DNA of 7,744 bases from an uncultured Ruminococcus sp. GTDB taxonomy: Bacteria > Bacillota_A > Clostridia > Oscillospirales > Ruminococcaceae. The translations under genes were made by a program, and so were the position numbers. Shown one piece after another: positions 1 through 7,744 of the stretch. Location: contig CALFMA010000412.1 of NCBI GenBank assembly GCA_937880065.1, positions 1-7,744 on the forward strand, written 5' to 3'. The notes beneath the pieces were generated by a model. It was given only the letters and a program-made list of their open reading frames with translations. It made no database searches and was not told the DNA's origin. Each line of letters begins with the position of its first letter. Position 1 is the stretch's first letter.

Positions 1-569
1 ACTGCGTCACACAAACCAAGAGAAGTAATAAACGTATCGCATTGCAGCCAGTAAAACGGCACATCCACATAATTTTTATTGGCAAGAGAAGTATATACAT
101 AATTCTGAATTGTGTCCCATTCTTCTTTGCCTGCTGTTGGAACAAGAAACATACCGCCACGCTCCGTACATCCCGACTGATAACACATAGCAATTGCTGT
201 CTGCGAATCAACATTAATTGGAGTTGTACTGCCTGTGCAGACAAATCCGTCCCAGCCGAAATCAGCCTGACTGTAGTTGAGAATATATCCGTTGCTTTCA
301 TTGCAGAATGGCTTATTATTGCGGATATATCCGCTTAAATCCTGTATGCCATTCTGAAAAATAGTGTAAATTGTATCAGCGTATTTTTCGGGAACTTCTT
401 CTGCAACAAAAACAGGCTGTCGTTTCGGACTGCCGCCTTGAATTTGCAAAATCTTCGGAATAAGCGTGTTCAGCGTTTCCGATGAATCAGCCTCAACACC
501 CTTAATACGCAGATTATTTGCAAGCTGTTCTTTCTGTTTCAGCAGTTCTTCAAGATATTTCGCTATCAT
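1..569 (-). CDS. Phage tail protein, putative fibre/receptor-binding component (partial, C-terminus off the left edge)
   Basis: This reading frame is open from the ATG at 569-567 to the window edge (189 full codons, no stop), so only the N-terminal part is seen. The ATG overlaps the stop of the preceding gene (ATGA, 566-569), and a GGAGG lies 7 nt upstream (577-581), which fixes the start. Residues 1-45 are an amphipathic helical segment (MIAKYLEELLKQKEQLANNL, then a GVEADSSETLNTLIPKIL stretch). This type of N-terminus is common on tail proteins of clostridial phages and probably docks the protein on the baseplate or forms a trimer stalk. From about residue 52 the sequence looks beta-rich, with many aromatics and glycines and five cysteines between residues 89 and 187. 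A carbohydrate-binding, jelly-roll-like fold is possible, but no family was recognised with certainty. Its place at the distal end of the tail operon supports a role in host contact. Tail protein: fairly sure. Exact function: unknown. Confidence 0.75.
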   Translation of the reverse strand, partial: MIAKYLEELLKQKEQLANNLRIKGVEADSSETLNTLIPKILQIQGGSPKRQPVFVAEEVPEKYADTIYTIFQNGIQDLSGYIRNNKPFCNESNGYILNYSQADFGWDGFVCTGSTTPINVDSQTAIAMCYQSGCTERGGMFLVPTAGKEEWDTIQNYVYTSLANKNYVDVPFYWLQCDTFITSLGLCDA

Positions 570-1588
570 GTATCCACCTCCACAATTTTTGCAAGTATTA
601 TTTCAACTCCCGTCAGCTTTTCAACACAGTTATTCCATTCTGCAACATATTCAGCTGTAATAGAATCAAGAACTCCCATATTTTTATGCTGATGCAGATT
701 TCCATGTATTTCAGTTTTGAAATTTTTAATCTGATTATCAACATATTCGGGAGCATTGTCCCATTTCTCAATTCTTTCAGCTGTGATTTCATCAAGAGCA
801 GATTGATTATTATGAGTATGAGATTTTCTTGATAAGCTTTCAATCTGCTCCTGCTGTGCGGAAATATCTCTTTTTAAGCTGTCCTGTAAGTAAATTAGTG
901 CTGTTTGTGTAACATATTTTGACGCATCAAATTCTGTGTCATTTTCGCCTTTTAAGGAATTAAGCCATTCGGATTCTGCGCCGACAAAGCCGTTTTTTAC
1001 TGCTATTTCATAAGCTGATAAACCGTCTTTGCCGTCAATACCATTTTTACCGTTTATACCATTGATACCGTCAGCACCTTTCAGACTTTCAAGCCACTCT
1101 ATAAGAGTGCCAGTAAAGCCATTCTGAACAGCAAGTTCGAACGCAGATAAGCCGTTTTCGCCGTCCTTTCCGTTTATGCCGTTACCACTCTCAGATATTA
1201 TTTTCTTTATTTCAGCCAAAAGCTGTGCATACAAATCCGGAGTTGGCGGAACATTACAGCTTTCACCGTCAAAACCGGACGGTCTTATATGAAGTGTCAC
1301 AGGCACAGTCGTTGCACGGATAGTTGTATCAGAATCACTATCATAGCCGAAAACGCTCATTTTCACCATACCGGGGTGAAGTTCCGACGGCAGCAGACAG
1401 GATAAACCGTCAACGCCTAACACACGGTTATAGATTTCATCACACTGGGAAAATTGCACAACCTTATGAAGATTTTTCCATGAGCAGTCAAAGGTGAATT
1501 TCAGCGTCACAAAAGCAATCTGTCCGCTTGCAATGACCTCACGCTCCGTGATTTCGATACGCTGACCTTTGACAAAAAATTTCATCAT
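566..1588 (-). CDS. BppU-like baseplate/tail fibre protein with collagen-like and HxH repeats
   Basis: A 340-residue protein probably forming a trimeric fibre or baseplate arm. The start is taken at 1588, not at the upstream ATG at 1663, because AGGAGG (1596-1601) sits 7 nt before it and its ATG overlaps the upstream stop as ATGA (1585-1588). Residues 1-105 look like an all-beta domain (MMKFFVKGQRIEI onward) similar to the N-terminal domain of BppU-type upper baseplate proteins, which attaches the fibre to the tail. Residues 118-133 form a short helix. Residues 135-214 carry two blocks of Gly-x-x collagen-like triplets, each followed by a 25-residue module starting LSAF/LSAY and ending EWL-x-SLKG, at a 43-residue period. 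Residues 215-255 are polar and helical. Residues 256-320 hold two copies of an H-x-H-x-N/x...LD-x-ITAE...W element exactly 42 residues apart. Such features are typical of trimeric tail fibres. The gene is translationally coupled to both neighbours. Role in host recognition is inferred from context. Confidence 0.8.
   Translation of the reverse strand: MMKFFVKGQRIEITEREVIASGQIAFVTLKFTFDCSWKNLHKVVQFSQCDEIYNRVLGVDGLSCLLPSELHPGMVKMSVFGYDSDSDTTIRATTVPVTLHIRPSGFDGESCNVPPTPDLYAQLLAEIKKIISESGNGINGKDGENGLSAFELAVQNGFTGTLIEWLESLKGADGINGINGKNGIDGKDGLSAYEIAVKNGFVGAESEWLNSLKGENDTEFDASKYVTQTALIYLQDSLKRDISAQQEQIESLSRKSHTHNNQSALDEITAERIEKWDNAPEYVDNQIKNFKTEIHGNLHQHKNMGVLDSITAEYVAEWNNCVEKLTGVEIILAKIVEVDT
629..823 (-). 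repeat. Two 42-residue HxH/ITAE stalk repeats in the BppU-like protein
   Basis: Residues 256-278 (SHTHNNQSALDEITAERIEK, then WDN) and 298-320 (LHQHKNMGVLDSITAEYVAE, then WNN) match at His, His, Leu-Asp, Ile-Thr-Ala-Glu and Trp, offset by exactly 42 residues (126 bp). H-x-H motifs in trimeric phage fibres and spikes are known to coordinate metal on the three-fold axis. Metal binding here is inferred, not shown. Confidence 0.75.
947..1186 (-). repeat. Collagen-like Gly-x-x blocks alternating with an LSAxE...EWLxSLKG module (two copies)
   Basis: Residues 135-146 (GNGINGKDGENG) and 172-189 (ADGINGINGKNGIDGKDG) are short runs of Gly-x-x-type triplets. Each is followed by a module of about 25 residues (147-171 and 190-214) with conserved Leu-Ser-Ala, Ala-Val-x-Asn-Gly-Phe and Glu-Trp-Leu positions. 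The period is 43 residues (129 bp). This arrangement is recurrent in Firmicute phage fibres and implies a trimeric rod. Confidence 0.85.
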
Positions 1589-1604
1589 GTCATAACCTCC
1601 TCCC
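1585..1604 (-). promoter_or_regulatory. Strong Shine-Dalgarno and ATGA stop/start overlap
   Basis: On the minus strand GGGAGGAGG (1604-1596) ends 7 nt before the ATG at 1588-1586, whose last bases form the TGA (1587-1585) of the leucine-rich repeat gene. The site decides the start of the BppU-like gene and implies coupled translation. The same ATGA arrangement recurs at 566-569 with GGAGG at 577-581. Confidence 0.85.
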
Positions 1605-2922
1605 ATGTTTCGCCATTCAGCACAAATGCACCGTCTATGCAGGAAATACGCTCCAACGGGCAATAAGCAGCATTCATAAGATTTTTGTATCCGACAACGG
1701 ATTTTAAATCGGAAACTGTACCCTCGTATGTAATTTCCTTCAGACTACCGCAATAATTAATGCAGTAAGCGTTAATTGACTTCACATTTTTGCTTAATGT
1801 AAGATTGGTAAGAGCAGAGCATTGTGTATACATAAAACTGCTAACTAAAGGAGAATCGACATAGGCAGATTTCAATTCTGCACATTCGTTGAACGCATAA
1901 CTGCCGATTTCTTTTACATTAAACGGAATAGTCACACTCTCAATCGCACAGCAGACAAATGCTTTTTCTGCGATAGTGTTTACATTTTTCGGAATCACAA
2001 GGGATTTCAGACCGCCGACAGAATACATAAAGAAACAGCGTTCTCCGATAGCTGTTAATGTTGTAGGTAAAGAAATTTCTGTCATATTCGTACAGCGTTC
2101 AAAAAGACTGCTGCCCAGAGCCGTAATGCCCTCACCAACATCAAGTGATGTAATTTCCGTGTTTTCAAAGAACGGTGAATCACCGATTTCATAATCATAA
2201 GTAGCACCAGTGCCACGGATAGCAAGCCTGCCGTTGGAGTACATGATGTAGTAAGCGGAATCGCCAATACTGCCGACAGCCGTCACATCTGCTGTGAAAT
2301 CGTCAAGACGAGTAGTGAGGGACGCAACCTGCGAGGACAAATCCTGCACCTGCTTTGTCAAATCAGCAACTGTGGAGCGATACACGGAAAGTGCCATAAG
2401 GATTTCGGAAACACGGCATTTTCCCAGCACACATTTCACATATCCGCACTTACTTTCATTCTCACGCATATCGATGATATTTTCATTGGCAATTACTTTT
2501 GTACCGCCTTTGAGGAATACAGCAGCAAGAGTGAGAAATTTCTTACTTGCTGAATTCTCAAACATAGGAATTGTGGGAGTTGTAGCAGCTGTACCAGACT
2601 TCACTTCAAGCTTACAGGCACGGACATTTTCGCTCACATCACAGCTGATGCCGATAGTAACATAGCGTGAAAGGGATTCATCTATATACTTTGACAAATC
2701 CAACGTATACGGCGTATCATTGATGAAATAATGCCCGTCAATCCATGCTTTTCCTGTGCCGATGACTACGCTTGTACCAGTACTAGCCGTGACAGAAAAG
2801 CAATCTCCGTAGGTATCAAACACACCGTTGCAGATAATGCTGGACAGATACCCTGTGAAATCCTCCGCCGTGTACATCCTGTCCATATTTTTCGCATTGA
2901 AAAATCCGTAAGAAAAACTCAT
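1585..2922 (-). CDS. Tail-tip adaptor with C-terminal BspA-type leucine-rich repeats, putative receptor-binding protein
   Basis: A 445-residue protein. The ATG at 2922 is preceded by AAGGGAG (2932-2938) at 9 nt and lies 4 nt after the stop of the hub gene. Residues 1-155 resemble the N-terminal adaptor region of clostridial phage tail proteins: they start MSFSYGFFNAKNMDRMYTAE and contain a TGKAWIDGHYF stretch, beta-rich, and would plug onto the tail tip. Residues 179-212 are a predicted coiled coil (ADLTKQVQDLSSQVASLTTR), which would trimerise the protein. Residues 257-394 carry six leucine-rich repeats of the BspA (Treponema-like, LRR_5) kind. Each is about 21-25 residues with a pattern like SVTIPFNVKEIGSYAFNEC, and a degenerate seventh unit follows at 395-410. 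The C-terminus (431-442, DGAFVLNGETWE) is a short cap. BspA-like repeats normally occur on bacterial surface adhesins, so a role in binding the host surface is likely but inferred. The gene ends in an ATGA overlap with the next gene. Confidence 0.85.
   Translation of the reverse strand: MSFSYGFFNAKNMDRMYTAEDFTGYLSSIICNGVFDTYGDCFSVTASTGTSVVIGTGKAWIDGHYFINDTPYTLDLSKYIDESLSRYVTIGISCDVSENVRACKLEVKSGTAATTPTIPMFENSASKKFLTLAAVFLKGGTKVIANENIIDMRENESKCGYVKCVLGKCRVSEILMALSVYRSTVADLTKQVQDLSSQVASLTTRLDDFTADVTAVGSIGDSAYYIMYSNGRLAIRGTGATYDYEIGDSPFFENTEITSLDVGEGITALGSSLFERCTNMTEISLPTTLTAIGERCFFMYSVGGLKSLVIPKNVNTIAEKAFVCCAIESVTIPFNVKEIGSYAFNECAELKSAYVDSPLVSSFMYTQCSALTNLTLSKNVKSINAYCINYCGSLKEITYEGTVSDLKSVVGYKNLMNAAYCPLERISCIDGAFVLNGETWEEVMT
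1693..2154 (-). repeat. BspA-type leucine-rich repeat array (six clear units plus one degenerate)
   Basis: Repeat units start at about residues 257, 281, 306, 328, 351, 372 and 395. The best-preserved share a Leu/Val-x-Ile-Pro...Val/Leu-x-x-Ile-x-x-x-Ala-Phe/Cys-x-x-Cys pattern, for example ESVTIPFNVKEIGSYAF at 328. The fifth to seventh units depart from the consensus: the Pro is lost, and Met-Tyr or Cys-Ile replaces Ala-Phe. Confidence 0.85.
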
Positions 2923-2926
2923 AAAA

Positions 2927-4045
2927 TCACACTCCCTTAAATGTTGGTGTCAGCGTCCTGCCGTTCTGGTCATAGCTTTCAATCATGCCTACAAGCTGAA
3001 TTCTCGGCTGAATCAAGCCGAATCGCTCATGCTCCACGGTAACATAATCACCTACAAAGTAATCTTTGTTGTACTGATACTGCCGATTGTCAGCGGCAAT
3101 GGTGGACTCGCTGATTTCTGTGATAGGCACAAGATTTTCTGCTCCTTTTTCCATGAGCAATCCGAGATAATCTTCATCCGGAATCGGCACAGTTTCACCG
3201 TCAACCTGCGTTTCATCGGCTACATCCTTTGCATCTACATAGAACTCATAACGGTTCAGCTGTGCAGGCTCATCGCCACGGTAACAGACCGTCCTTTTAC
3301 GCTCCACACCCTCACCACAACCGAGAACGTATGCAATATTTTTCTGCACGGATAGATCCATAGAATAGCCGAAAGTCAGCAAATTGCAGTAGGAATCCGA
3401 GAACACGATATGTGCATTATCCTCCTGCAAAATACTTCTGTCAGCACCTTGCGAGAGGTCGAGCATCATGGTGTATATGCCGCTGCCTGCGGAAGTTTCC
3501 TGCAAACGTATATTTGCTGTGCCGCCGATCATCTCACAGACCTTGAATATCCATTCCATGAGGTTTTCATAGCTGACCTGTAATCGGGATTTCTGACTCC
3601 AGCAAGTGCCGTCTGTATTGCCGTGACGAAGCCCAGGTATCTGACGATTATCGGACAGCATACAATTGCGATACACCGCAAGCCGAACCATATCCGCATA
3701 GCTTGTCAGCGTAGAAAATGAGAGCGTCGGATAAATGATTCTTCGAGAAAGCAGGGACATGAGAAACCGTCCTGTCACTGTCAGATAATCACCGTTCTCT
3801 GCATCCGTTTCAAGTGTGACAGATTCAATAATGCCGTAGTGCTGTTTATCATCATCCCGACCGATAATTCTGCCAGTCTGAAAAATCGCAATGTTGCGAG
3901 CATTGGCGGCAATATATACCTCAAAATTACCGCAACCATAATACTGCACATCCCACAGCAGACTTGAAAAACTGTCGCATACAGCTGCGAGAGAGATTTG
4001 AACTCTCGCTCCGTTTATTGTTATATCATAAATTTCAATTTGCAT
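2927..4045 (-). CDS. Gp37-like phage tail-tip hub protein (Siphovirus ReqiPepy6 Gp37-like family)
   Basis: A 372-residue protein of the family typified by phage ReqiPepy6 Gp37. These proteins are encoded directly after Dit and are thought to form the tail-tip hub, the equivalent of Tal or the gp27-like hub. The ATG at 4045 has AGGAG 6 nt upstream (4052-4056), and the gene begins 1 nt after the dit stop. Family-type features are visible. WDVQYYGCGNFEVYI (31-45) is the usual early Trp...Gly-x-Phe-Glu segment. GRIIGRDDDKQHYGIIESV (58-76) is followed by YLTVTGRFLMSLLSRRI (87-103), the characteristic Thr-Gly-Arg...Arg-Arg-Ile core. The C-terminus has DYFVGDYVTVEHERFGL (328-344) and ends in TPTFKGV. 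The protein is compact, and no peptidase, lysozyme or NlpC/P60 motif could be seen, so it is probably structural only. It would cap the tube before injection and carry the adaptor protein encoded next. Confidence 0.85.
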   Translation of the reverse strand: MQIEIYDITINGARVQISLAAVCDSFSSLLWDVQYYGCGNFEVYIAANARNIAIFQTGRIIGRDDDKQHYGIIESVTLETDAENGDYLTVTGRFLMSLLSRRIIYPTLSFSTLTSYADMVRLAVYRNCMLSDNRQIPGLRHGNTDGTCWSQKSRLQVSYENLMEWIFKVCEMIGGTANIRLQETSAGSGIYTMMLDLSQGADRSILQEDNAHIVFSDSYCNLLTFGYSMDLSVQKNIAYVLGCGEGVERKRTVCYRGDEPAQLNRYEFYVDAKDVADETQVDGETVPIPDEDYLGLLMEKGAENLVPITEISESTIAADNRQYQYNKDYFVGDYVTVEHERFGLIQPRIQLVGMIESYDQNGRTLTPTFKGV

Positions 4046-4046
4046 T

Positions 4047-4922
4047 TTACACTCCTAAATAAGCATTTGTATGCATCAGCGTGATTTTCAGATTCTTGAC
4101 ATTCTTCACCGCCTGCACATGGAACGTGTTCAGCCCCTCACGGAGCGTCAGCCAAGTGGAACCAGCCACAAGCCGATTGATGATGTTGCTGTCCACGCCA
4201 TTTCGGGTGAGCGTGACTGTTTTATTGCCTGTTTTCGTGGAAATCGTGATGATGTCCCCACGAAGGATTTCTCCCTTGATTTGCAGATATTCGCCAGTAT
4301 CGGCGTTGTAAATGGTCGGTGTCACCGCTGCAATTTCAGGAACGGTCACATCCGTCATGGCTTCAATCCGAATGATGAATCCGGTTTCATCGCCGTCATT
4401 GCGGATTTCAATGTTATCCGTGATGCTGTAGCTGCCGAGGGCGAACGGCTCGTCACTCTGCGGAAAGGGAAAGAAAAATCCGCCGGAAACACGACTGTAA
4501 CAGGCGTGAATGGCGGAGGTGCTGTACCAGTATGGGTCGGGGCAGAGAATGGAGATCTGCCCGTTTGTGTGACTCTGGAAATTATCGATCTCACAGGTCT
4601 CCACATAGCCCTCTGTGTACACGTCAATGCCAGCAGTCTTGTAGAAAACCTTGATATATCGGGAAGGCTTCACCACACGGTAGAGAGCGTGACGGCGTTT
4701 TTCCAGCCCCACGCCACGCATTTCAAAGCTGATGACAAGGTTACGCTTTTCAATGAAAGCATTGTTGAGATAGCTGCCGTCCATACCTGCGTAACTGGAA
4801 GTACTGACCGTGCCGGGCGGTGGGTGCAGACCGGAGATTTTTGAGGTCATGTAGCGATTTGCAGATGCTGTCATATCAATCTGTTCACCGTTTTCATTTT
4901 GAAGAATAAGAGTAAAAAACAA
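4047..4922 (-). CDS. dit: Distal tail protein (Dit; phage tail family protein)
   Basis: A 291-residue protein matching the Sipho_tail/Dit family, whose hexameric ring joins the tail tube to the tip and anchors the baseplate. The N-terminal half (about 1-135) contains the ISGLHPPPGTVSTSSYAGMD region (29-48), a Glu-Lys-Arg-Asn-Leu-Val-Ile strand (58-65) and ISILCPDPYWYS (123-134), the usual cue at the end of the N-terminal domain. Residues 150-291 form the C-terminal beta-sandwich (galectin-like in SPP1 Dit), with IRNDGDETGFIIRIE (173-187), an NADTGEYLQI stretch and a late GSTWLTLREGLNTFHV (254-269). The first usable codon is TTG at 4922. The only nearby in-frame alternative is too far inside the protein, and the upstream ATG at 4939-4941 is out of the reading because it meets a TGA after four codons. 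The Shine-Dalgarno is modest: AAAGGA (4933-4938) at 10 nt. The gene is separated from the tape measure gene by an opposing lipoprotein gene, where these two are normally adjacent. Confidence 0.88.
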   Translation of the reverse strand: MFFTLILQNENGEQIDMTASANRYMTSKISGLHPPPGTVSTSSYAGMDGSYLNNAFIEKRNLVISFEMRGVGLEKRRHALYRVVKPSRYIKVFYKTAGIDVYTEGYVETCEIDNFQSHTNGQISILCPDPYWYSTSAIHACYSRVSGGFFFPFPQSDEPFALGSYSITDNIEIRNDGDETGFIIRIEAMTDVTVPEIAAVTPTIYNADTGEYLQIKGEILRGDIITISTKTGNKTVTLTRNGVDSNIINRLVAGSTWLTLREGLNTFHVQAVKNVKNLKITLMHTNAYLGV

Positions 4923-4940
4923 AGTTTCACCGTCCTTTCA

Positions 4941-4970
4941 TTGACTTTTGAGGGCGGGATGTGGTATAAT
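4941..4970 (+). promoter_or_regulatory. SigA-type promoter with extended -10 for the lipoprotein gene
   Basis: TTGACT (4941-4946) and TATAAT (4965-4970) are separated by 18 nt. TG at 4962-4963, one base before the -10, makes a TGnTATAAT extended -10. Five of six bases match at -35 and six of six at -10. Transcription would start near 4977, leaving a 5' leader of about 26 nt. No operator-like inverted repeat was seen over it, so constitutive expression, including in a lysogen, is the simple reading. Confidence 0.85.
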
Positions 4971-4988
4971 AAATTTAATTTGTGTATT

Positions 4989-4994
4989 GAGGAG
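4989..4994 (+). promoter_or_regulatory. Ribosome binding site of the lipoprotein gene
   Basis: GAGGAG at 4989-4994 lies 8 nt before the ATG at 5003. It overlaps the in-frame GTG at 4994-4996, which therefore cannot be the start. This places the start at 5003. Confidence 0.85.
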
Positions 4995-5002
4995 TGACCA
5001 TA

Positions 5003-5593
5003 ATGAAAATAAGTAAAATAGTATGTTCTTTAGCTGTATTTTGTTGCCTCTGCATGACAGGCTGCGAAAAAGGAGTTGAAAATACAACTGATGCCGCTAT
5101 AGAAAAAAACACAACTGAAAGTATAACATCTATCAACGACACTGAAACATCTGCCCCAAACTTTGAAATCAGCGTTTCCGGAAAAACACTGTCTTTCCCG
5201 TTCAAATATGAAGATCTTGAAAAAATGATTGATCTTTCAGATTGTCAGAATGTATATTTTGAGGAAAGCGATTTCACTGTATGTACTGTCTATAATGGAA
5301 TGAGTCGAATTTGTACGCTTTTTGTGACTGGAAATGTATCAGAACATACATCGGAAACCCTTGTAACACTAATCGAAATAGATGAACCAGAAAAAGGCAT
5401 TTTCACTCTGAACGGTTTGAAGAACGATACACTTGAAGATTTCAAATCAGAATTCGGAGAATCAGAAATAGAATCCGATTCTTTATATGAACACACATGG
5501 GGAAATATCATTCTTAGTGTCTTTTTTGACCATGAAACGGGTGAAGCATCAAGTATTGAACTGCTTGACACGGATTATCCGCACTCTTTATGA
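5003..5593 (+). CDS. Small surface lipoprotein, prophage moron (putative superinfection-exclusion or conversion factor)
   Basis: A 196-residue predicted lipoprotein on the opposite strand to every tail gene. MKISKIVCSLAVFCCL is a Lys-containing, hydrophobic signal peptide ending in a lipobox Met18-Thr19-Gly20-Cys21. After lipid attachment at Cys21 the protein would sit on the outer face of the membrane. Residues 22-52 are a Thr/Ser/Glu-rich linker (NTTESITSINDTETSAP). Residues 53-127 form a first alpha/beta stretch (ISVSGKTLSFPFKYEDLEKM) with three further cysteines (81, 94, 104). Residues 132-190 read as strand, NGLKNDTLEDFKSEFGES, then strands (IILSVFFDHETGEASSIELL), a pattern reminiscent of SmpA/BLIP-like domains; this is only a resemblance. 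The gene has its own promoter and RBS. Samples counted by hand give 30-35% GC against 53-57% in the dit and tape measure genes, which fits acquisition as an independent cassette. Lipoprotein: confident. Function: not recognised. Exclusion of other phages is an inference from position and type. Confidence 0.85.
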   Translation: MKISKIVCSLAVFCCLCMTGCEKGVENTTDAAIEKNTTESITSINDTETSAPNFEISVSGKTLSFPFKYEDLEKMIDLSDCQNVYFEESDFTVCTVYNGMSRICTLFVTGNVSEHTSETLVTLIEIDEPEKGIFTLNGLKNDTLEDFKSEFGESEIESDSLYEHTWGNIILSVFFDHETGEASSIELLDTDYPHSL

Positions 5594-5620
5594 AAAAGTG
5601 AGCATGCAAAAACACTCGTA

Positions 5621-7744
5621 TTATACATTCACCGCATTCCTCGTAAGTCTGTAAATCTCCAGCCGTGACAGTGCTTTCGGACTATTATTAGTCTGATTCA
5701 CCGTCCGGCTGTTGTCGTTGTTGTAGTAATTATTCACCACGGACGCACCTCCAGTACCGCTCACAACAGCGACAGACGCCCCATCAAGCCGACAGCTCAG
5801 ATCCGACTGCATCGTCAGTTTCATCGTTTCGGCAACACCTGAAACCGCCTTTTCCACGTACTTTTTGCTTTTGTTGATGCCGTCCGCAAGCCCACGCATG
5901 AAGTCCGGCATCCAGCTTTCGTAGTCGGTCAGCGGGCCTTTGTCCGGCACGGAGAAGTGCAGAAACTCACGAATCGTATCAGCAACACCAGTCACACAGT
6001 CTGTCAGCTTGCCGATCATGCTCTTGATGCCGTCAATGATGCCGCTGATAATGTCCGCACCCCAACTCCAAGCGTCGGAGGCAAGACCCTTCACAAAGTC
6101 CACAGCGGTATTGAAACCGTCCTTCACGGTCGTGACAATGCCGCTGATTTTCTCTGAAACGGCAGACTTGATATTCTCCCAGACGCTCGAAACCGTGGTC
6201 TTAATCTTTTCAAGTACATTGGAAATAGTTGTAGATATACTGTTCCATGCAGTTGAAACTTTGCTTTTGATAGTTTCAAGTATATCTGAAATTGATGATT
6301 TTATGCCGTTCCAGATACTTGATATAGTTCCCGAAATTGCAGTCAGCACCGTGTTGATAACAGTTTTAATTCCATTCCAGATGGTATCAAATGTGCTTTT
6401 GATGCCCTCCAGAAGCGGAGAGAGGAACGAAACAATGCCATTCCAGATTGCTGAAATTTTCTCCGAAATCCAGTCCATCGCCATGCCGATGAGAATCTGA
6501 ATCGCTTGAAAAATAGTTTCAAACAGATAACGGAACGCCTCCAGCAGCGGAGCGAGAAAATTGTAAATTTCGGTAAAAATGCCTGTTATGAAGTCCTTGA
6601 CCGAAGTAAAAATTGTCGTTGCAATCGTCTGGATTGCTGTAATAATATTTGTGAATGTGGTGTAAATCGCCGTCCACGTATTCACAAAGAAATCACGGAT
6701 GCCCGTTACAATGCCTGTGAAGAACGTGGAAATCGAAGACCAGATGCCCACAAAGAAATCCTTGACTGCTGTCCATGCACCGTTCCATGACGTGCCGAAC
6801 CAGCCGAGAACCACATCCGCCACATTTTTGATGACGTTGAGGATATTCTGGAAAGTGGACACCAGCAGATTCCAGATGGAAATGAAGATACCCTTGACAC
6901 CGTTCCACATCTGCTCCCAGTCACCCGTGAACAGCCCCACGAAAATATCCAGCACACCGAGAATGACACCCGATGCGGCAGAGAGGATATTGGCGATATT
7001 TGTAAACATTCCCTCGAACATGGGAGCAAGCACAGAGCAGAGAGCATCCCATGTGGCTTTCAGCATTTCGGTGAAATTCTCAAAATCGAAGCCCAGCTCA
7101 TTGACCCTTGAAACGATGCCGTCCGCAAGTCCCGAAAATGTTTCTTTAATCTGATTCCAGATGCCGATGATGCTGTTCTTGAATTCATCATTCGTGTTCC
7201 ACAGATGCACAAATGCCGCCACGAGAGCCGCAATCGCCGCAACCACGGCGAGAATCGTGCCGAGGGAAACGCCCAATGCACCCGTCACAGCTGCAACACC
7301 GCCCTTGACAGCGGCAATGGCGGCAGGTGCTTTCGACACGAGCGTCATGATACTGCCCACGCCCGAAATCGTCTTGCCGATGACAATCAGCAGAGGACCC
7401 AATGCCGCTGCAATGAGGGCGATTTTGACAATGGTTTCTTTTGTCTGGGGGTCAAGCTGATTGAGCTTATCCACCAGTCCCTGAATATGGGAAACGATGG
7501 AACGGATGGTCGGCATGATAATATCCGAGAATGAAATCGCCAGTTCTTCAAGCTGTGATTTCAGAATGGTCAGCTGTCCCGTGAGGTTGTCCTGCATGGT
7601 TTCCGCCGTGGCAAGGGATGTGCCGTCACAGGACGAAATCGCACCCTGTAACTTGTCAATATCTGATGGTGCAGCGTTCATGAGAGCAAGAAATCCCGAC
7701 ATTGCGTTCTTTCCAACCAGAGCCTGCGCCGCCGATGCTTGTTC
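5621..7744 (-). CDS. Tail tape measure protein (partial, N-terminus off the right edge)
   Basis: The frame is open to the window edge, so 707 C-terminal residues are seen and the ATG at 7702 is internal, not the start. The protein sets tail length, is packed in the tail tube and leaves it at injection. Counting from the edge codon (7744), residues 1-85 contain GKNAMSGFLALMNAAPSDID and DNLTGQLTILKSQLEELAIS, the signature end of the phage tail tape measure (PhageMin_Tail) domain. Two strongly hydrophobic segments follow, about 105-124 (IVKIALIAAALGPLLIVIGK) and 162-182 (GTILAVVAAIAALVAAFVHL), candidate membrane-penetrating parts. Residues 269-544 are a Trp/Phe-rich helical region in strict 11-residue register. 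Residues 594-634 (LHFSVPDKGPLTDYESWMPD, then MRGLADGI) are the conserved C-terminal module, and an Asn-rich tail (VVNNYYNNDN) precedes the end. No peptidase or transglycosylase motif was seen in this part. Its gene ends 27 nt from the convergent lipoprotein stop. Confidence 0.92.
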   Translation of the reverse strand, partial: EQASAAQALVGKNAMSGFLALMNAAPSDIDKLQGAISSCDGTSLATAETMQDNLTGQLTILKSQLEELAISFSDIIMPTIRSIVSHIQGLVDKLNQLDPQTKETIVKIALIAAALGPLLIVIGKTISGVGSIMTLVSKAPAAIAAVKGGVAAVTGALGVSLGTILAVVAAIAALVAAFVHLWNTNDEFKNSIIGIWNQIKETFSGLADGIVSRVNELGFDFENFTEMLKATWDALCSVLAPMFEGMFTNIANILSAASGVILGVLDIFVGLFTGDWEQMWNGVKGIFISIWNLLVSTFQNILNVIKNVADVVLGWFGTSWNGAWTAVKDFFVGIWSSISTFFTGIVTGIRDFFVNTWTAIYTTFTNIITAIQTIATTIFTSVKDFITGIFTEIYNFLAPLLEAFRYLFETIFQAIQILIGMAMDWISEKISAIWNGIVSFLSPLLEGIKSTFDTIWNGIKTVINTVLTAISGTISSIWNGIKSSISDILETIKSKVSTAWNSISTTISNVLEKIKTTVSSVWENIKSAVSEKISGIVTTVKDGFNTAVDFVKGLASDAWSWGADIISGIIDGIKSMIGKLTDCVTGVADTIREFLHFSVPDKGPLTDYESWMPDFMRGLADGINKSKKYVEKAVSGVAETMKLTMQSDLSCRLDGASVAVVSGTGGASVVNNYYNNDNSRTVNQTNNSPKALSRLEIYRLTRNAVNV
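6113..6940 (-). repeat. Tape measure 11-residue (hendecad) Trp/Phe repeat region
   Basis: Counting from the edge codon, Trp or Phe falls at residues 280, 291, 324, 335, 357, 379, 390, 412, 434, 456, 478, 500, 522 and 544, all separated by multiples of 11. Every intermediate 11-residue position (269, 302, 313, 346, 368, 401, 423, 445, 467, 489, 511, 533) is Leu, Ile, Val or Met. From 434 to 522 Trp recurs exactly every 22 residues (66 bp), mostly as I-W-N-G-I-K-like units. Hendecad Trp/Phe repeats are known from tape measure proteins. They fit a long helical rod with one residue face every three turns. Confidence 0.9.
6201..6300. other. AT-rich patch with 66-bp-spaced repeat inside the tape measure gene
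   Basis: Hand counting gives 28% GC over these 100 bases, against 55% at 6061-6120 and 57% at 6901-6960 in the same gene. Within it, 6209-6228 and 6275-6294 agree at 16 of 20 bases at an offset of exactly 66 bp, the length of one 22-residue protein unit. This points to unit duplication or import of repeat units by recombination. Confidence 0.7.

Follow-up and report, generated by a model that had tools for sequence, protein, structure and literature searches.

Small, high-turnover loci between two conserved phage genes, many of them carrying defence genes, have been reported as hotspots of P2-like phages and P4-like satellites (Rousset et al. 2022, PMC9122126). The site analyzed here shares this arrangement and, set against the hotspots as that report presents them, differs in that it (i) is embedded in the late tail operon of siphophages with relatives among Ruminococcus phages, in antisense orientation and behind a recurring promoter that abuts dit; (ii) often holds a single gene, with a cargo broader than defence; and (iii) in some instances holds cargo whose boundary cores also occur in host cassettes. 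For Staphylococcus aureus phage 80alpha, too, an antisense gene driven by its own promoter is described within a phage operon, and this noncontiguous operon (Tha/Ith) is reported to separate lysogenic and lytic expression (PMC11087260). Mutually exclusive expression in these two states is reported for 80alpha, while for the gene examined here it is proposed from the geometry of the locus; furthermore, the 80alpha antisense gene is described as an inhibitor of a defence system in the cI operon (PMC11087260), whereas the present gene is exchangeable cargo of a late operon. A third point of comparison is Ltp of Streptococcus thermophilus phage TP-J34, described as a phage-encoded lipoprotein that is made by the lysogen, as is probable here too, and sits on the outer side of the membrane (PMC3952083). 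According to the same description Ltp is encoded in the lysogeny module, whereas the present gene is in the tail module, and no sequence kinship between the two was found. Integron gene cassettes, including those of phages, are described as single genes that are exchanged behind a resident promoter and have imperfect inverted boundaries, some of them beside a tyrosine recombinase gene (PMC9892861), features that are also encountered in the present analysis.

No description of an antisense cargo site between the tape measure (tmp) and distal tail (dit) genes, or of the 13-bp core reported below, was found in the open-access literature among the matches listed by title and beginning of abstract. 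Candidatus Heliusviridae have been described with possible metabolic genes (PMC9226167), and a term search of the available text of that paper returned neither 'tail' nor 'tape measure'; Ca. Heliusvirales is the assignment given in the record of NatCom_23091, one of the phages with the site. Here we present evidence that, with a probability of roughly 0.7, the plus-strand lipoprotein gene examined currently occupies, as cargo, an exchangeable antisense site that lies between tmp and dit in a family of siphophages related to Ruminococcus phages, and encodes an accessory surface lipoprotein expressed by the lysogen.

Antisense lipoprotein gene within a siphophage tail module

The window, that is, the whole stretch of 7,744 nucleotides that was analyzed, was found to be a siphophage tail module on the minus strand, apart from one plus-strand gene at 5003-5593. 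The minus-strand genes encode (i) the C-terminal part of the tape measure protein (TMP; 5621-7744, phrog_1272/58), cut by the window end; (ii) the distal tail protein Dit (4047-4922, PF22768/PF05709, phrog_33), with a TTG start; (iii) a ReqiPepy6 Gp37-like tail protein (2927-4045); (iv) a protein bearing LRR_5 (1585-2922); (v) a protein with collagen-like repeats that are sub-threshold in Pfam (566-1663); and (vi) a further product, cut (3-569). The plus-strand gene, which with its promoter occupies 4941-5593, was found to be a real antisense lipoprotein gene between TMP, the upstream flank of the cargo site, and dit, its downstream flank. It begins with an ATG at 5003 and its stop codon ends at 5593, giving a protein of 196 aa. 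The promoter (4941-4970, plus strand) is composed of a -35 box TTGACT (4941-4946), an 18-bp spacer and a -10 box TATAAT (4965-4970) with an extended -10 (TGG-TATAAT, 4962-4970), and matches 11 of the 12 consensus hexamer bases; four promoter-like sites were detected in the region compared with 2.7 expected, and this site was by far the best. In the leader (4971-5002) a ribosome-binding site, AGGAG, is present at 4990-4994, and TAAATTTAATTTG at 4970-4982 could be an eroded form of the cassette core described below. The coding region opens with a signal peptide and MTGC lipobox (5003-5065), the Cys of which is residue 21 (codon 5063-5065). The GC content of the lipoprotein region is 0.357 compared with 0.454 for the window outside 4941-5620.

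These results confirm the first-pass annotation of the locus, which had described a single plus-strand gene with its own promoter, ribosome-binding site, lipobox and low GC between TMP and dit. Its proposal that the gene is a moron is strongly supported as well by the promoter, the foreign composition, the insertion between genes that are otherwise adjacent and the presence of other genes at this position in relatives. An intrinsic terminator was not found at 4800-5750, hence none between the lipoprotein gene and TMP, and in this respect the gene departs from a textbook moron.

Elsewhere in the module, a BspA-type LRR_5 domain was found in a virion protein (1585-2922), and the gene that follows it carries the collagen-like repeats. 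Identity of the LRR protein between the close relatives L009-L011 is 56-86%, compared with 92-93% for Dit, a divergence that suggests turnover in receptor binding.

The TMP-dit gap as a site of gene exchange

Loci related to the window were collected by Dit-based searches, which provided 9 loci and then 59 in IMG/VR, together with phage NatCom_23091 (with two tail modules) and cell genomes, where Dit matches at E <= 1e-60 were present in 15 of 396 genomes of the family. The resulting clade set comprised 73 loci including the window; eight loci with distant Dits (L071-L078, at most 30% identity) were left out. A gap between TMP and dit was observed in 63 of the 73 clade loci, while the remaining ten, assigned from gap lengths and leaders (L029 by eye from its leader), were gapless. 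Among the eight distant-Dit loci, the two genes adjoin in five (gaps of 8-68 nt), a gap of 386 nt that contains no antisense ORF separates them in L074 and L075, and L077 was unplaced.

An antisense ORF of at least 60 aa starting within 260 nt of dit was detected in 61 of the 63 gap loci; the other two, L060 and L065, have the gap and the promoter with no ORF of at least 60 aa under this rule, L065 being close to a contig end. An ORF inside the TMP of a gapless locus (L026) was left out of the cargo counts. The 61 cargo ORFs were grouped by BLASTP links at E 1e-4 spanning more than 50 aa, which left 46 unconnected clusters; more distant kinship between clusters is possible under this rule. As expected of a phage cargo hotspot, 38 locus pairs (redundant loci included) had Dit DNA that was at least 90% identical and cargo that was unlinked, counts that are not independent because the loci are related and the cargo ORFs were chosen by rule. 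Cargo GC was below dit GC in 50 of 51 loci. The lipoprotein itself was present in 2 of the 73 clade loci only, the window and L002.

Comparison with close relatives was used to locate the ends of the exchanged DNA. With L117, whose Dit protein is 95% identical, DNA homology to the window is lost at the stop codon of TMP and picks up again at 4979, immediately beyond the promoter, so delimiting an exchanged segment of 4979-5620. Homology to L116 resumes at 4984, while that to L011 and L012 ends 7 nt before the TMP end and starts again at the final base of the -10 box, 4970. The exception was L009, for which homology is not regained until 4853, within dit. The exchanged DNA thus reaches, in four of five close relatives, from the TMP end to the -10/start region of the promoter. 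We view the site as an antisense, promoter-bearing cargo port, a variant of the known phage accessory hotspots.

A sigma-A-like promoter recurs beside dit

Promoter matches were scored on the antisense strand within 75 nt of the dit start by the following rule: a first hexamer starting with TT and having no more than three mismatches to TTGACA, a spacer of 16-18, and a second hexamer with no more than one mismatch to TATAAT. Such a match was found beside dit in 61 of the 63 gap loci compared with 1 of the 10 gapless loci. When non-redundant loci were counted the proportions were 51/53 and 1/10 (Fisher test, p = 2e-8, relatedness not removed), a p-value that is only indicative because the loci share ancestry. 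The sole gapless match (L130) lies upstream of dit, in a region that codes for TMP when the locus is gapless, and is a chance hit. The two gap loci without a match were L034 and L050, the latter with a promoter further away as judged by eye. In controls on the first 57 loci, the antisense strand matched in 51 and the sense strand of the same stretch in 10, compared with 22 of 1,121 windows in the antisense dit body and 436 of 2,850 dinucleotide shuffles. Read from sequence, these comparisons show that a predicted sigma-A-like promoter recurs beside dit throughout the clade, whereas the gene downstream of it varies. By eye, the -35 box and the complement of the dit Shine-Dalgarno sequence overlap in many loci; in the window, this sequence (AAAGGA, 4933-4938, minus strand) is two bases from the antisense -35 box.

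A short hairpin was also seen by eye between the promoter and the 5' core in the cargo leaders of L061, L059, L119, L031, L063 and L067; such hairpins may protect or regulate the mRNA.

Cargo repertoire of the site

Cargo proteins matched a broad range of Pfam families above the cut-off, including chromate transporter, flavin reductase, HXXEE, VanZ, Na/H exchanger, NMN transporter, Fic, GIY-YIG, DnaJ, MTaX1-HNH, SduA (Shedu), EamA, RpiB, metallo-beta-lactamase fold, HsdR-N, TraX, PDDEXK_4, SnoaL, PfkB and Gp49, while many had no Pfam match at all. PADLOC was run on 27 of the first 37 cargo clusters and gave confident matches in six (PDC-S26, PDC-S04, HNH, MTase_I, PD-T4-3 and SduA); the L063 cargo matched weakly, and one of ten further cargo proteins that were scanned matched NsnC. 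Two other cargos narrowly missed the Pfam cut-offs of families tied to toxin immunity, SUKH-1 (24.9 of 25.4 bits) and Imm33 (24.8 of 25.4 bits). One other dit-proximal cargo, P0018 in NatCom_23091, has a lipobox-like start, and a second gene in L050 looks similar by eye.

A patchy family of Ruminococcus lipoproteins

Among about 5.8 billion proteins, 16 homologues of the lipoprotein were detected at E <= 1e-3, and 18 once a profile was used. Cys21 was invariant in the alignment (14 of 14 sequences), as befits a bacterial lipoprotein, as were an FPF motif (residues 65-67), Cys94, Cys104 and the strand ICTLFV. AlphaFold2, run with 13 sequences, predicted a globular domain at residues 51-190 with confidence (pLDDT 85-98 by ten-residue blocks), of mixed and mostly beta structure (b-b-a-b-b-b-b-b-a-b-b-b), and a low-confidence linker from the signal peptide to about residue 50. 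Pfam gave only a match to CAP_assoc_N (PF14504), which at 20.4 bits falls below the gathering cut-off of 29.3 bits and was matched by 2 of 13 family members at E <= 0.5; the protein was thus not assigned to this family. Searches of PHROG and PADLOC likewise gave sub-threshold or no matches, and the best match in a PDB sequence search (E 0.26) covered the signal peptide and linker of another lipoprotein. We also considered an internal repeat, with two halves of one fold, and rejected it as hhalign gave no support. Substitution rates of the window gene were dN 0.009 and dS 0.076 relative to L002 (dN/dS about 0.12) and dN 0.24 and dS 0.96 relative to L003 (dN/dS about 0.25), indicating that the protein is under purifying selection.

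A search of genome contigs identified seven further loci (L002-L008), all from Ruminococcus. In L002 (Ruminococcus sp. SIG549) the copy, 98% identical, occupies the same phage site, with 96.8% DNA identity to the window over 894 bp spanning the dit 5' end, the lipoprotein gene and the TMP 3' end. Together with the 18 homologues and the substitution rates, this second copy speaks against a chance ORF. The neighbours of L003-L008 differ from locus to locus and none was tail-like when the ORFs were read by eye; among the chromosomal relatives, no conserved neighbours pointed to a function. Apart from L002, the inspected homologues were in Ruminococcus contigs without tail-like genes. In the genus to which R. 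flavefaciens ATCC 19208 belongs, 31 of 125 genomes had a match at E <= 1e-3 and 10 of 125 a strong one (E < 1e-20), whereas no relatives were found in IMG/VR by pattern search or among 50,697 phage records. This distribution shows, at the level of sequence, that the lipoprotein is one of a patchily distributed family of accessory lipoproteins in Ruminococcus.

On the L002 contig, a Fic gene (5958-6722) that is 69.5% identical to the phage cargo of L045 was observed about 5 kb from the lipoprotein-bearing prophage remnant.

Boundary cores and chromosomal cassettes

In three R. flavefaciens genomes (L004, L006 and L007), the chromosomal lipoprotein gene is bounded by imperfect inverted cores, with a 5' core, TAAATCGGAATTT, just before the ribosome-binding site and a 3' core, AAATTCTGATTTA, at the stop. 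L004 and L007 are core-bounded cassettes, as is L006 with a diverged 5' core; the L004 contig starts at the 5' core and its promoter is outside the contig. The L006 cassette (L006:9947-10598) and its L007 counterpart are 97.7% identical over 652 bp in a block that begins and ends within 10 bp of the cores, and the two units have different promoters outside the cores. These alignments show that in R. flavefaciens the lipoprotein gene occurs as a unit between short inverted cores, with the promoter outside. In L007, three units stand in a row (L007:1229-3438) beside a tyrosine integrase, the first with a weaker 3' core. The integrase-adjacent position is occupied in three strains by three genes, encoding a 515-aa lipoprotein-like product (L151), a 125-aa product (L007) and a relative of the window gene (L004), and the L151 and L007 sequences cease to be homologous at the cores. 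Because an integrase match was found only in L007, L004 and L151 among the chromosomal loci scanned, a role for the integrase is a guess; as its best matches in the L007 array were 'Int protein' and XerA chains, with IntI4 weaker, its identity as IntI stays putative. Integron attC sites have R''/R' ends of the consensus RYYYAAC...GTTRRRY; here, in contrast, a 13-bp core is present on both sides of the gene and the attC ends were not seen by eye. Mobile insertion cassettes are IS-end-bounded passenger genes of Bacillus cereus, and the core-bounded units resemble them in gene layout, with a passenger gene between inverted repeats without a transposase.

The core was found to be enriched in the genus, with 785 occurrences of TAAATCRGAATTT in 125 genomes (113 of which had at least one) compared with 17 of the reversed pattern. 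In 60 genomes sampled from the whole class, the CGG form was detected at 28 sites and the control at 13, which indicates that core enrichment is concentrated near Ruminococcus. Pairing was analyzed in 148 listed sites from 21 genomes, 54 of which are of the CGG form: an inverted CAG site was located 150-2600 bp downstream of 24 of the 54, upstream of two, and in the same orientation downstream of two, and no inverted CGG-CGG or CAG-CAG pairs were seen at 150-2600 bp among the 148 listed sites.

At the phage site, the 5' core was found in 11 and the 3' core in 10 of 61 loci (no more than two mismatches, fixed windows), with none for the reversed controls; as the 5' core was absent from 50 of the 61, the cores mark some cargos only. 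Both cores were present within the fixed windows in six loci (five cargo families), and L031 and L039 add two core-bounded families when the 3' core is read further from the predicted stop, giving seven. Phage-to-phage exchanges break within a few bases of cores (L061 vs L131; L059, L053 and L039). The VanZ-family cargo of L039 is 94.7% identical over 600 bp to the chromosomal locus L134 (genome G012), with unrelated flanks, and the match begins 6 bp ahead of the 5' core and extends about 9 bp beyond the 3' core.

The window gene has no recognisable 3' core (AAATTCYGATTTA) and a 5' core (TAAATCRGAATTT) that is at best eroded, and so was not classed as a cassette. Sequence comparison makes a core-bounded cassette origin plausible for the lipoprotein family, the window copy itself being without clear cores. 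A further candidate, a 5'-3' inverted repeat general to all cargos, was rejected as only 7 of 61 loci scored at least 10 (the 95th percentile of the null being 10) and the window scored 8. Six loci gave no Rfam match at the gathering thresholds, and the L007 leader and 3' end, folded separately, showed nothing beyond shuffles. The cores could either serve recombination or act in RNA, where the CGG/CTG mismatch would be a G-U pair. A tentative model, which we hold to be possible and for now the less probable side of the question, is that promoterless single-gene cassettes bounded by the core, some of them beside a tyrosine integrase, travel in Ruminococcus in an integron-like manner, that the antisense promoter site between tmp and dit is their docking port, and that the window lipoprotein is a passenger with eroded ends. 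If true, such a port would allow temperate phages to acquire host cassettes with 13-bp inverted cores (TAAATCGGAATTT/AAATTCTGATTTA), express them in the lysogen and disseminate them. The presence of boundary cores in both host cassettes and phage cargo also offers a testable route for the movement of single genes between Ruminococcus chromosomes and phages.

Compact 35-bp palindromes, TAAATCAGAATTT-WGCNNNGCW-AAATTCTGATTTA, in which the two cores are 9 bp apart, were observed as nine copies in 5 of 125 genomes (L162-L170, around position 1500), and are possibly empty sites or REP-like elements.

Possible function of the lipoprotein

The lipoprotein is most likely a host-derived accessory gene product expressed by the lysogen. 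In the lysogen, the late operon would be silent and the antisense promoter on, and the lipoprotein would be anchored on the outer face of the membrane, where the host may gain a surface trait by lysogenic conversion, in the form of protection or competition at the cell surface. Upon induction, head-on late transcription from the TMP side would, judging from the geometry, turn the antisense gene down. A general accessory lipoprotein for fitness or protection is ranked as most likely, ahead of a dedicated blocker of DNA injection.

A more specific role, which we consider rather unlikely, is that of an immunity or competition lipoprotein that would shield lysogenic cells against neighbours producing an extracellular bacteriocin, lytic enzyme or polymorphic toxin. 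The patchy accessory distribution in the genus and the two cargos close to the SUKH-1 and Imm33 cut-offs are consistent with this role, whereas the lipoprotein matched no immunity family in Pfam and no toxin gene was recognised by eye beside the chromosomal copies.

We find it improbable that the lipoprotein acts in superinfection exclusion as Ltp does, blocking DNA injection by related phages from outside the membrane, possibly by binding their tape measure protein. The location is right for such a protein, expression in the lysogen is expected, and other cargos of the site match defence models (PDC-S26, PDC-S04, PD-T4-3, SduA, HNH and type I restriction-like). The mixture of defence, immunity-like, transport and metabolic cargo lends some prior weight to exclusion and at the same time removes the argument from adjacency to the tape measure gene. 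Kinship to Ltp was not found: the Ltp-type family was absent from the Pfam scan (to E 1), Ltp was absent from the solved-structure sequence matches (PDB, E <= 10), and no relative of the lipoprotein appeared among the 50,697 phage records. In addition, Ltp has a helical fold, whereas the fold modelled for the lipoprotein is mixed and mainly beta, so that the fold class, as predicted, appears to differ. Most of the homologues found are chromosomal and many of the site's cargos have no evident phage link, which also argue against exclusion. The TP-J34 precedent of a prophage-expressed lipoprotein that blocks injection is, as described, encoded in the lysogeny module (PMC3952083), and thus the position next to TMP is no parallel. 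The first-pass annotation had suggested an exclusion factor acting on the tape measure protein because of this neighbourhood, a suggestion left unsupported as 46 unlinked cargo clusters, transporters and metabolic genes among them, occupy this position; adjacency to TMP is thus a property of the site and no clue to the target. Exclusion by another route is possible, given the six other cargo families that match anti-phage models. More generally, adjacency to a tape measure gene is a poor guide to function.

That the protein matters little and an antisense RNA to the tmp/dit transcript is what counts is very doubtful: with no terminator found between the lipoprotein gene and tmp, transcripts may run on into tmp antisense, yet the protein is under purifying selection (dN/dS about 0.12 vs L002 and 0.25 vs L003) and exchange of the sequence leaves coding capacity intact. 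Similarly far-fetched is a virion or tail-assembly gene that merely faces the other way, since, although the gene sits in the tail module, it occurs in only two of the 73 clade loci (the window and L002, with L060 and L065 having no countable ORF), has a lipobox, and has homologues in contigs without recognised tail genes.

Under the favoured reading of the gene as exchangeable, lysogen-expressed cargo, one odd lipoprotein comes to exemplify a place of exchange within the late operon of gut phages, where a backward sigma-A-like promoter is combined with changing genes, several of which match anti-phage defence. Reading the contents of the tmp-dit interval would be a simple way to mine new defence and host-fitness genes.

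Antisense genes elsewhere in NatCom_23091

Phage NatCom_23091 (L001, PV036433) was observed to carry two diverged copies of the tail module (TMP-Dit-Gp37-LRR), at 1-7064 and 17154-25971, in opposite orientation, each with its own antisense cargo and with an annotated DNA invertase between them. Its late operon has two further antisense genes, at 26022-26999 and 33841-34899, with the products being an HNH restriction-type protein just upstream of TMP and an amidohydrolase between portal and terminase. Additional antisense cargo positions may thus exist in such phages.
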